From the NCBI GenBank assembly GCA_012518975.1, contig JAAYRC010000245.1:1-37570 (forward strand): a stretch of DNA of 37,570 bases, in the 5' to 3' direction. The translations under genes were made by a program, and so were the position numbers. Below, piece by piece: positions 33,491 through 37,202 of the stretch. Source of the stretch: Clostridiales bacterium. GTDB taxonomy: Bacteria > Bacillota > Clostridia > Lachnospirales > Lachnospiraceae. The first letter of the stretch is position 1, and each line of letters begins with the position of its first letter. The notes beneath the pieces are model-generated. The model was not told the origin of the DNA and made no database searches. It was given only the letters and a program-made list of their open reading frames with translations.

Positions 33491-34630
33491 ATGATTAAAA
33501 AAACATTACAAATAATACTTCTAAGCTTGACTATTATTTCTTTAGTAGCTTGTAAACATAAGGATGACGAAAACACTTATGAAATAGAGTCTAAAATCAA
33601 GGATTCTAAAACAAACTATGAATGGGAAGAAAATGATAACGATAAGAGTGAGATTCAAGATAAGAACATCCCAGAAAATGCTGCAGAAGAAATCCAGTCA
33701 GAAGCAATTGAATTATCTGACTCACAAGTCAAGGATAATAATATAATCGAGGATGATAATATGACCGAGGATAATCTTCCCAAAGTGCTGATAACTGATG
33801 ACTTTGTAATGAAGGTTAGCAAAATCTATGAAACTCCTGGAGAAGGCATTGCCGCTGAAGGAGAAGTTTTATCAGGGTCTGCCTCTATCGGTGCCGAGAT
33901 TGAGATTTTAAGCCGTAATAATGGGTTGATTCCAGCACAGATAACTTCAATAAGAGTAAAGGGCGATCTGGTTGACAATATTTCAGTCGGTGATTATGGT
34001 TTTGTAGCCTTACCAAATCTGGAGGGTAAGGATTTGGACGTAGGTGAGTGCCTTGTAACCAAGGGGCTTTATATGACATATAATTCTTTTCTTGCTAAGA
34101 TGAAATTTATAGAAGAAAAAGAAGATTCCTTCTACAATGAAATCCTAAAATCTCGTTCTTATATTCTTGTTACAGATACATACTGTAATATTACTTTTGA
34201 TAAAAGCAGCTTAGATGACAATGGTTACATAATGGCAACTTTCGAATTAATAACACCTCTATATATGAGTATTGGGACAGAATTTGAACTTCGAGAAGGT
34301 TTTGATCCTATTGCTTATGGGGAGGTTATCTCTTTCGATCTATCGTCATTCTCTGTAGAAACCAGCATAGAAGAAAATGATTCGGAAACCATGGATTCAA
34401 GCGATAACGATGAAGGCACCGGCATAAGGATAAAATTAATTGATAGCGGATCACTTAAGATACAGGTTATAAAGGAGATACGAGATATATTTGGTTTAGG
34501 CTTAAAGGAAGCTAAAGATATAACAGATAATGTACCTTATGAATTCACTGAAATACTTACAATGGAAGAAGCAATTGAAATAAAAACAAGGTTAGAGGAA
34601 TATAATGCTATTGTTGAAATTATTGACTAG
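33491..34630 (+). CDS. Lipoprotein with EF-Tu domain-2-like, domain-3-like and ribosomal L7/L12 C-terminal domains
   Basis: Seen: a signal peptide with lipobox LVAC (Cys21) predicts lipid anchoring outside the membrane. An acidic Asp/Glu/Asn-rich linker runs to about 100. Residues 103-190 (FVMKVSKIYETPGEGIAAEG ... SVGDYGFVALPNLEGKDLDVGECLV) follow the EF-Tu domain-2 barrel pattern. Residues 222-283 (NGYIMATFELITPLYMSIGT, FELREG) resemble EF-Tu domain 3. A second acidic linker precedes residues 311-379, which carry the L7/L12 C-terminal signature VIKEIRDIFGLGLKEAKDITD ending EAIEIKTRLEEYNAIVEI. There is no GTPase domain. Known: domain 2 binds aminoacyl-tRNA and the L12 domain binds translation GTPases. 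Inferred: these folds are reused for adhesion, envelope binding or a regulatory role. Monocistronic; AAAGGA precedes the ATG. Domain calls are by pattern only, strongest for L12 and domain 2. Confidence 0.8.
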   Translation: MIKKTLQIILLSLTIISLVACKHKDDENTYEIESKIKDSKTNYEWEENDNDKSEIQDKNIPENAAEEIQSEAIELSDSQVKDNNIIEDDNMTEDNLPKVLITDDFVMKVSKIYETPGEGIAAEGEVLSGSASIGAEIEILSRNNGLIPAQITSIRVKGDLVDNISVGDYGFVALPNLEGKDLDVGECLVTKGLYMTYNSFLAKMKFIEEKEDSFYNEILKSRSYILVTDTYCNITFDKSSLDDNGYIMATFELITPLYMSIGTEFELREGFDPIAYGEVISFDLSSFSVETSIEENDSETMDSSDNDEGTGIRIKLIDSGSLKIQVIKEIRDIFGLGLKEAKDITDNVPYEFTEILTMEEAIEIKTRLEEYNAIVEIID

Positions 34631-34737: not shown

Positions 34738-36828
34738 CTACTTTGTTAGAAGCATCATGATATCATTACTTCTCTGAATAAACTTTGTCATAGCCTCAGG
34801 CTCTAATGGCTTATGGGCCAGGTATGCTAAATCATACAGCTGTTCGCATATCATCTGTGTATGTTCTGACTCCTCATTAGTAATAATATGCTGTACAAGC
34901 TCATGGTTAGCGTTTAATACAAGGGTTTCTCCGTCACCAAATTGACCAGCACCCATACCTGCCATATTGTACATACGCATCATATCCTGCATTCTACGGC
35001 TTTCCTCTGATAGGGTCATAACAGAGGCTAGCTTATTATTTTTAAGCTTTTCTACCTTAACCTCAAGCTTATCCATTCCTAGAGTCTTTCTAAATAGCTT
35101 AGTCATGGCTTCGGTATTTTTCTTTAGAATCTTTTTATCTTTTTTCTGGGTTTCATCCTTAAATCTATCTGTAATGTCAGCATCTATACGCTGGAATTTT
35201 ACCTTTTGATTCTTATATTCAACATGGCTTATAAAAGGCTGGTCGATATTATGAGTTAGTATAAGAGCATCTAGTCCTTCTTCCTTAAACATGTTAATAT
35301 ACTGGCTCTGTTGCTTCTCATCACTTACATAATAGACAATGACCTCTTCCTCTTCCTCAGACTTATCATCCTCATGGCTTTCAGCACTATCTGCTTCATT
35401 TCCATCTGTAGAAACTTTATCCTCTTTTGTCTCTTTGGAAGCCTCTGCCTTATCAGCTTCTGAGGCCTTGGCTTTAGAGGCCTCTACATATTCATCCAAG
35501 CTTATATATTTTCCTTCAAGGTTCTTATAAATGATAAAATCCTTCATTCTTTCACTGAACTTTTCATCCTTTAGACAGCCAAACTTAATAAAGGGGTTAA
35601 TATCATCCCAGAACTTTTCATAGTCTTCTCTTTCAACCTTGTACATACCAGAAAGCTTATCTCCTACCTTCTTTGTGATGTAGTCAGATATCTTTTTTAC
35701 AAATCCGTCATTTTGAAGTGCACTTCTTGATACATTCAAGGGTAGGTCAGGACAGTCAATCACACCTTTTAGGAGCATCAAAAACTCTGGTATTACTTCC
35801 TTAATATTATCAGCTATAAATACTTGATTATTATATAACTTAATTGTACCCTCTATAGAATCATACTCTGTATTGATTTTCGGAAAATATAGGATGCCCT
35901 TAAGATTAAATGGATAGTCCATATTCAGATGGATCCAGAATAAAGGCTCCTTATAATCATGAAATACCTCACGGTAAAAAGTCTTGTATTCCTCTTCTGT
36001 ACATTCATTTGGATGCTTTGTCCATAGGGGTGTAGTATCATTTATAGGCTTAGGCTTCTTATCCTCTTTCTTGTCATCTTCTTTAGGATCACTACTATCA
36101 TCAGCTGAATCTACTTCCTCTATGGCCTTCCCATCCTCATCAACAGATGTGGTTATAATATCTTCCTTATCTTCGACTTCCTCCTCTTCTGGAGTATTGG
36201 CGTTCTTAAAATATATTTCTACAGGCATAAAGGAACAGTATTTATTAAGGACTTCCTTAACCCGATATTCATTGGAGAATTCATAGCTTTCGTCATTAAG
36301 ATAGAGGGTTATTTCTGTTCCTCTTTCGGTTCTGCTACCTTGTCCCATCTCATACTCTGTACCACCATCGGATTCCCAATAGACAGGGCTAGCTCCCTCC
36401 TGCCAGGACAGTGTATTAATTGTTACCTTGTTTGCTACCATAAATGCTGAATAAAAACCAAGTCCAAAATGGCCAATAATCTGATCATCATTGGTTTTAT
36501 CCTTATATGTCTCTAAGAATTTTTTAGCACCTGAGAAGGCTATCTGATTGATATATTCCTTAACCTCATCTGCAGTCATCCCTATACCATTGTCTGTAAA
36601 GCTTATGGTTTTTTCCTCCGGATTAACTGTAACAAGTATTTTATAATGATTATCCTCGGGAATATCAACCTCACCCATTATCTCTAGCTTCTTTAATTTA
36701 GTAATAGCATCGGATCCATTTGATACAAGCTCTCTAACAAATATATCATGATCCGAATACAACCATTTTTTAATTATAGGAAATATATTTTCCGAATTAA
36801 TCGATAGATTACCTCTTTCTGTACTCAT
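34738..36828 (-). CDS. htpG: Molecular chaperone HtpG (Hsp90 family)
   Basis: ATP-dependent cytoplasmic chaperone. The N-terminal ATPase domain shows IFVRELVSNGSDA, SFTDNGIGM and GHFGLGFYSAFMV; the middle domain has PLWTKHPNE, GILYFP and LNVSRSALQ; the C-terminal dimerisation domain ends the protein. The length of 696 aa exceeds the usual 620-640 because of two charged insertions. One is a linker of about 50 residues (211-262) between the N and middle domains, like the eukaryotic Hsp90 linker. The other is an Ala/Lys/Glu-rich insert of about 47 residues (449-495) between LDEYV and VIVYYVSDEKQ. AAAGGAGA precedes the ATG. The gene is behind a CIRCE element and a long structured leader. Confidence 0.96.
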   Translation of the reverse strand: MSTERGNLSINSENIFPIIKKWLYSDHDIFVRELVSNGSDAITKLKKLEIMGEVDIPEDNHYKILVTVNPEEKTISFTDNGIGMTADEVKEYINQIAFSGAKKFLETYKDKTNDDQIIGHFGLGFYSAFMVANKVTINTLSWQEGASPVYWESDGGTEYEMGQGSRTERGTEITLYLNDESYEFSNEYRVKEVLNKYCSFMPVEIYFKNANTPEEEEVEDKEDIITTSVDEDGKAIEEVDSADDSSDPKEDDKKEDKKPKPINDTTPLWTKHPNECTEEEYKTFYREVFHDYKEPLFWIHLNMDYPFNLKGILYFPKINTEYDSIEGTIKLYNNQVFIADNIKEVIPEFLMLLKGVIDCPDLPLNVSRSALQNDGFVKKISDYITKKVGDKLSGMYKVEREDYEKFWDDINPFIKFGCLKDEKFSERMKDFIIYKNLEGKYISLDEYVEASKAKASEADKAEASKETKEDKVSTDGNEADSAESHEDDKSEEEEEVIVYYVSDEKQQSQYINMFKEEGLDALILTHNIDQPFISHVEYKNQKVKFQRIDADITDRFKDETQKKDKKILKKNTEAMTKLFRKTLGMDKLEVKVEKLKNNKLASVMTLSEESRRMQDMMRMYNMAGMGAGQFGDGETLVLNANHELVQHIITNEESEHTQMICEQLYDLAYLAHKPLEPEAMTKFIQRSNDIMMLLTK

Positions 36829-36848
36829 GCTTTTCTCCTTTCCTACTC

Positions 36849-37074
36849 TTAATAATATTTAAGTAATTACGAAACTCAAGTTATGATCTAGTGCAAGTTT
36901 AACAAACCATGGCAGGCACGCTTTCGCTACCTTCGCCTCGTAACGGTACATAAGCTGCCAAAGTAGGCCAGCTAAATACCGACGGTCTCAGAGTACCTGC
37001 TTGTGGTCCTTGTTTAACTTGCATTAGAAACAAGGATTTCGTGAGTCTCGCAATTGCCTGCTTTAATAATATTT
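36849..37074. repeat. 12-bp direct repeat flanking the leader RNA core
   Basis: TTAATAATATTT (plus strand) at 36849-36860 and 37063-37074 bracket the GC-richer structured domain exactly. It could be a target-site duplication or a chance AT-rich match. Confidence 0.45.
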
Positions 37075-37133
37075 TATAGTTAGTCATATCCCTAAATATC
37101 TGTATGTAACCATAGGGCTTGACTAACCTTTTA
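36888..37133 (-). ncRNA. Structured leader RNA of htpG (or an independent ncRNA in its 5' region)
   Basis: The predicted start is near 37133 and htpG begins at 36828. Seen on the minus strand: a 5' hairpin (GTTAGTCA/TGACTAAC plus CCCTA/TAGGG, 37127-37079); a closing stem GCAGGCA (37061-37055) with TGCCTGC (36918-36912); a hairpin CCTTGTTT/AAACAAGG (37035-37028 with 37015-37008) whose 12-nt loop pairs at 11 of 12 positions with 36899-36888, forming a pseudoknot; a hairpin CGGTA...TACCG with inner AGCTG/CAGCT; and a GC-GAAA-GC tetraloop. The domain is visibly richer in GC than its surroundings. No terminator separates it from htpG. I cannot name the family; the raiA-motif class is one model to test. 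Confidence 0.6.
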
Positions 37134-37139
37134 TCAAAT

Positions 37140-37168
37140 ATAATAATACCTTAGACATAAAATGTCAA
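37140..37168 (-). promoter_or_regulatory. Promoter of the htpG leader
   Basis: The minus strand has exact TTGACA, a 17-bp spacer and TATTAT. It lies directly downstream of the CIRCE element and about 300 nt before the htpG start codon. Confidence 0.75.
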
Positions 37169-37175
37169 GATAAAT

Positions 37176-37202
37176 TTAGCACTCTTCATGCAAGAGTGCT
37201 AA
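37176..37202. promoter_or_regulatory. CIRCE element (HrcA operator)
   Basis: TTAGCACTC-N9-GAGTGCTAA is a perfect match to the CIRCE consensus, the binding site of the heat-shock repressor HrcA. It ends 7 bp upstream of the htpG -35 element, rather than overlapping the transcription start as is more common. Confidence 0.95.

Follow-up and report, generated by a model that had tools for sequence, protein, structure and literature searches.

A MITE-like repeat with a covarying three-way-junction core in the htpG leader of a Lachnospiraceae bacterium

The htpG locus and its leader

The window, the whole stretch of 37,570 nucleotides analysed here, carries htpG on its minus strand together with a sigma-A type promoter and a perfect CIRCE operator, TTAGCACTC-N9-GAGTGCTAA, as in the HrcA regulon (Table 1). 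With these two elements upstream, htpG is expected to be controlled by HrcA. The leader is composed of two parts: an insertion (36860–37060) and a native 5' portion, which forms a separate hairpin at about 37080–37130. The hairpin of the native part, GGTTAGTCA..TGACTAACT on the minus strand, is spelled otherwise (AGCCA..TGGCT) at the matching place in the leaders of several relatives, and is possibly a conserved 5' stem. Elsewhere in the window, an ORF at 33491–34630 on the plus strand encodes a lipoprotein-like product of 379 aa with a signal containing LVAC. At its end Pfam places the C-terminal domain of ribosomal L7/L12 (2.2e-15), and its middle resembles the EF-Tu domain-2 fold by eye, an unusual combination.

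Table 1. Coordinates of the features at the htpG locus
Feature	Position	Strand	Basis
htpG (Hsp90), 696 aa, downstream of the insertion	34738..36828	-	ORF; Pfam HSP90 8e-63
htpG ribosome-binding site AAAGGAG, undamaged by the insertion	36835..36841	-	Sequence; motif also in relatives' leaders
Target-site duplication, copy 1, ttaataatatt	36849..36859	.	Identical 11 bp on both sides; 10–12 bp duplications in the TIR-A family
Whole inserted element, 201 bp, TIR-A type, ends CAGGCAATTGCGAGACTC ... AATTACTTA	36860..37060	-	Aligned copies; missing from relatives' htpG leaders
Right inner arm segment TTGTTAAACTTGCA, pairs with 37010–37023	36892..36905	-	Sequence; MFE fold; copy comparison
Conserved three-way-junction RNA core	36906..37006	-	Model R1 match, 71.8 bits, E 8e-18
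P3 mini-hairpin AGC-GAAA-GCG (GNRA)	36919..36928	-	145 GNRA loops, no GNYA; mutual information
Apical hairpin of P2, UCGGUAUUUAGCUGG..CAGCUUAUGUACCG, internal loop UUA/UUAU	36944..36982	-	Alignment and mutual information
Left inner arm, including local hairpin CCTTGTT..AACAAGG	37008..37035	-	Sequence; 22-copy comparison
Target-site duplication, copy 2, ttaataatatt	37063..37073	.	Sequence
Sigma-A type htpG promoter TTGACA-17-TATTAT	37140..37168	-	Sequence; aligns in relatives
Perfect CIRCE operator (HrcA)	37176..37202	.	Motif match, 0 expected; conserved in relatives

The sequence-only reading had described the leader as a large pseudoknotted RNA, and the following of its building blocks were recovered: the pairing of TGCAAGTTAAACAA with TTGTTAAACTTGCA (one mismatch), the local hairpin in the left arm, the GNRA hairpin and, on inspection by eye, no clear terminator between the RNA and htpG. 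The 319-nt leader has an MFE of −91.6 kcal/mol (z = −4.2), and none of 100 dinucleotide shuffles folded as well. The proposed pseudoknot was not upheld, the long pairing being nested in the MFE fold as the middle of an arm of a near-palindromic inserted element. Two mutually exclusive folds had also been suggested. Among the 22 copies compared, the local hairpin showed no compensatory change and the long arm showed several. As other subfamilies have different arms that lack the local hairpin, an exclusive two-fold switch is without comparative support.

A regulatory leader specific to htpG, whether a thermosensor, a riboswitch or a two-fold switch, would suit the location, with a heat-shock gene's promoter on one side and its start codon on the other, as well as the two overlapping pairings. 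However, the structure is missing from the htpG leaders of all the relatives examined, including the closest, with an 89% identical protein, so that neither the thermosensor nor the ligand sensor suggested earlier is supported. The same structure is found near unrelated housekeeping genes in both orientations, the local hairpin is uncompensated, and heat regulation is already explained by HrcA/CIRCE. Such a leader is hardly credible and can be regarded as largely refuted. What stands of the large RNA structure in a heat-shock transcript is a genuinely selected fold, but not an htpG element; the covariation proposed as a check is seen among homologous repeats, not among htpG leaders.

Insertion of the repeat and its probable mobiliser

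The inserted element has imperfect terminal inverted repeats and lies with the CIRCE/HrcA promoter on one side and the htpG ribosome-binding site on the other. The distance from CIRCE to the ATG is 347 nt here, compared with 63–179 nt in 16 same-genus htpG leaders with a recognised CIRCE. All 16 lack the element and present the empty site; CIRCE and the promoter are conserved in the relatives. With the leader as query against relatives, 14 matches were obtained in its own genome (G000) and 12 in genome G001, most of them 84–91% identical and covering only leader positions about 82–283, and model R1 hit G000 15 times. Besides the copy at htpG, that genome contains around a dozen others.

The aligned copies have the common ends TAGGYAATTGCGAAACTC...GAGTTTCGCAATTRCCTA and differ in the sequence outside them. 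As in a MITE, TAGGYAATTGCGAAACTC occurs at both ends as a terminal inverted repeat, and the copies are small, mostly 201–212 bp, and devoid of coding capacity. Codon-level conservation of the 62-codon ORF had been named as the alternative to a structured RNA; this frame is open only in the window copy and is interrupted by 2–4 stops in 21 of the 21 others. Across 47 candidate copies, the 11-bp flanks had a mean identity of 0.50 versus 0.334 when shuffled (maximum 0.385). Perfect 11-bp duplications flanked six of the 47, and the window copy matched at 11 of 11 positions; in the TIR-A family the duplication is 10–12 bp long, mostly 11. An inserted repeat as the source of the structure in the htpG leader is nearly certain. 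No position was common to the G000 copies and the G001 copies compared with them; within this genus the copies move. At 1315–1520 of locus L051 (G000, contig C125) the core runs opposite to its arms and ends, as though it had been turned over between the inverted arms.

A candidate mobiliser was found in another genus (locus L234, genome G145). This 1745-bp element has the TIR-A ends TAGGTAATTGCGAAACTC and TAGGCGTTTGCGAAACGC, a 12-bp target duplication (AATTCTATATTG) and one ORF of 501 aa, which matches Pfam DUF772 (5.6e-14) and, below threshold, a DDE domain. An autonomous element with matching ends, as a MITE would have, is thus present outside the repeat's own genome. Its DUF772/DDE transposase is closest to the IS1182 family, the best match in NCBIfam. 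The element differs from that family in that its score of 77.9 is far under the curated cut-off of 270, and the core RNA was not seen inside the element. An IS1182-like insertion sequence is the likely mobiliser of the TIR-A backbone. Counting against this proposal, a transposase of the L234 type was not found in G000 (78% complete), G001 or G032, which is why mobilisation in trans can only be inferred; several of the G-series genomes are incomplete.

The core itself is found in at least four unrelated inverted-repeat backbones (TAGGYAATTGCGAAACTC; GTTACTGTTCACACC; TAARCTGTAGYTTAAAGGAA; GTGTCAAAAGCCC) and also in tandem arrays. Two such arrays were seen in genome G167, one of four copies (L202, period about 164 bp) and one of three (L204, about 187 bp), the cores being co-oriented. 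Small repeats with TIR-A ends and unrelated interiors were observed as well (L180–L187 in genomes G156, G151 and G073), for example a 151-bp type with GGAGCGGAAGCTAAGCGGAAGGAGCGTTGGAGCGG.

Fold and strand of the conserved core

In distant relatives only the interior of the repeat is common, and the arms are different. This core is a three-way junction formed by a long closing stem (P1), a P2 hairpin that contains a UUA/UUAU internal loop and is capped by 7 nt, and a GNRA mini-hairpin of 2 bp (P3). A pattern scan of genome contigs returned at least 119 stretches, nearly all from Lachnospiraceae among those listed. In an alignment of 59 sequences, 83% of cells were paired, versus 67% in shuffled alignments and at most about 40% when the structure was slid; double changes numbered 375 versus 148 (0 of 500 shuffles as good). 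The invariance of P2b is partly by construction, because its letters were fixed by the scan pattern, and copies found with the covariance model do carry compensatory P2b changes (TGGTAC/GTACCA, CAGTAC/GTACTG and CTGTAC/GTACAG).

Mutual information among 91 non-redundant copies recovered P1, P2 and P3 and revealed the extra pairs 12–77, 13–76, 15–74 and 16–73, which indicate that P2 begins directly at P1 in a compact junction. In this set the GNRA mini-hairpin is flanked by a nearly invariant A..G. Among the mini-hairpin loops tallied across copies, GAAA occurred 64 times, GAGA 40, GCAA 24, GGGA 8, GGAA 5, GCGA 4 and AAAA 8; there were 145 GNRA tetraloops and no GNYA. Covariation of the core fold is overwhelming, and there is good support for selection of the core as a single-stranded fold. 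A lone P2 hairpin without the junction was seen at 1623–1662 of locus L007 (genome G006), about 60 bp from a complete element.

The inner closing stem, read on the core strand, contained 42 G.U and 10 A.C oppositions in singleton arm clusters (p = 9e-6); with cluster weighting the figures were 47.8 and 11.1 at 16–39 nt from the core. G.U was about ten times as frequent as A.C at 24–31 nt, and the bias vanished at 40–47 nt. This excess points to selection on the single-stranded core strand, with a stem of about 25–28 bp. Beyond 48 nt, in the outer arms, the core strand showed the reverse, with A.C ahead of G.U (about 62 to 36 when weighted by cluster), which counts against the proposal.

The core could alternatively be a single-stranded DNA hairpin for a mobilising enzyme, comparable to REP hairpins with Y1 transposases or to attC sites, rather than an RNA. 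The occurrence of dispersed intergenic copies in both orientations and without a promoter would suit such a role. G.T is also the mildest DNA mismatch, so a DNA hairpin would likewise prefer it to A.C, and the G.U excess is strong but not decisive for RNA. Against a DNA hairpin stand the roughly tenfold size of the bias at 24–31 nt from the core and the purine at the third tetraloop position in nearly every G-first loop. Moreover, the TIR-A terminal repeats and 11-bp duplications are DDE-like, not Y1-like, and the Y1 transposase family PF01797 occurs in 38 of 70 carrier genera versus 47 of 80 non-carriers and is absent from the own genome. A REP element with RAYT was rejected on the same lack of co-occurrence. 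The DNA reading is fairly unlikely; action of the core as RNA is likely but unproven.

Palindrome-correcting template switching is known in bacteria, and the long near-perfect arms with their copy-specific sequence could be its by-product, with no selection on structure. Under such a process, however, the conserved mismatch loop UUA/UUAU would be lost, there would be no one-strand preference for G.U over A.C, and the core would not stay conserved beside faster-changing flanks. As the whole explanation of the pairing it is very unlikely, although it may help to keep the outer arms matched.

Age, distribution and likeness to known systems

Most of the loci examined in genome G349 of genus g175 are syntenic in genome G405. 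In nine orthologous pairs, divergence per column was 0.059 in the core versus 0.274 and 0.158 in the flanks, the right flank of which can include coding sequence. One pair (L331/L318) showed several compensated changes and a GAAA-to-GAGA swap. Different loci of the g175 genome have arms with little or no relation to one another (mean identity 0.44), and these arms nonetheless pair. Since orthologous cores are conserved and locus-specific arms stay paired, the structure has been maintained over long times and not merely copied. The g175 copies are old loci shared by descent, in which the core is conserved and the flanks change fast.

Conserved synteny, strong conservation of the core and locus-specific arms would also be expected if every copy were an independent gene for a small RNA, driven by a promoter of its own and serving the host, the transposon ends being secondary. 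Nevertheless, no conserved upstream promoter was seen, the left flanks have diverged in the pairs L336/L323 and L338/L320, and the G000 and G001 copies are without common positions. A collection of small RNA genes is thus an unlikely account of the repeat.

Model R1 had hits in 70 of the 150 Lachnospiraceae genera sampled, with at least 27 copies in several genomes. In a 200-genome sample of the phylum, both hits fell inside Lachnospiraceae and no genome of another family had one; the viral contigs, phage and plasmid records searched gave no match to the repeat. Orientation relative to flanking genes was symmetrical (34 versus 29 for co-directional contexts). The 140 neighbours were ordinary housekeeping genes with no enriched family, and no raiA, IscB or TnpB-type gene was among the commonest neighbour families. 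Internal or upstream promoter hits were sparse, mildly commoner on the sense strand and without a convincing peak. Random orientation without an evident promoter is awkward for an RNA that has to be transcribed on one strand.

The explanation preferred here, which is held with high confidence, is a non-autonomous MITE-like repeat inserted between the HrcA-controlled promoter and the htpG ribosome-binding site, with a core under strand selection. The sequences themselves show the insertion, the terminal repeats and duplication, the multicopy nature, the conserved core fold and the selection on the core strand. The htpG leader would contain the folded RNA only because the repeat happened to land there, and any effect on htpG, such as a change in leader decay or cleavage by RNase III, would be incidental. 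The TIR-A backbone would be mobilised in trans by an IS1182-like DDE transposase. The core RNA, a closing stem of about 25–28 bp capped by the GNRA-stabilised three-way junction, may be recognised by some host protein, allowing the repeat to persist, spread and be taken up by different transposon backbones, while purifying selection would keep the core at old loci. This last step, from RNA action through recognition of the junction to persistence across backbones, is put forward tentatively. Equally tentative is the wider proposal of a Lachnospiraceae-wide structured RNA family outside Rfam that works as RNA, is bound by a host protein, has been captured repeatedly by unrelated backbones and also forms stable loci. 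If true, the core would be a portable RNA domain to which mobile repeats owe their success.

Recognising the striking htpG leader as an insertion brings to light an abundant RNA family, present in nearly half of the sampled genera of Lachnospiraceae, a major family of gut bacteria. Strand-specific pairing and the sharing of one core by unrelated backbones raise the question of whether a folded RNA, besides the ends, can be what selection keeps in a bacterial MITE.

The raiA motif, HEARO/OMEGA and other Rfam leader or mobile-element RNAs are likewise large, structured and noncoding, and come from Firmicutes or from mobile elements. Membership of such a known class had been considered for the leader. 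The core differs from them in matching no Rfam family and in the absence of raiA, IscB and TnpB-type genes from its commonest neighbour families. Against the Rfam 15 families, raiA motif included, only generic hairpin or miRNA chance hits were obtained at gathering and permissive thresholds (up to E = 10). No earlier description of the repeat or motif was found in the open-licence literature, most subscription papers being outside this scope. The core family is absent from Rfam 15.

The Bacillus cereus group repeats bcr1–bcr18 are interspersed intergenic repeats of one bacterial group, some MITE-like, some with conserved RNA structure and a location in UTRs (PMC3446304). The Lachnospiraceae repeat is like them in its group-specific interspersed intergenic distribution, MITE-like character, conserved RNA structure and UTR location, a likeness judged from their description; it differs in host group and in having one core across several unrelated inverted-repeat backbones. 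It also resembles the Correia/NEMIS-type MITEs, which are short and non-autonomous, with terminal repeats, target duplications and long-hairpin transcripts, those of Correia elements being cut by RNase III (PMC10969869). Unlike these, the Lachnospiraceae repeat is conserved in its interior and not at its ends alone, with covariation and a GNRA hairpin.
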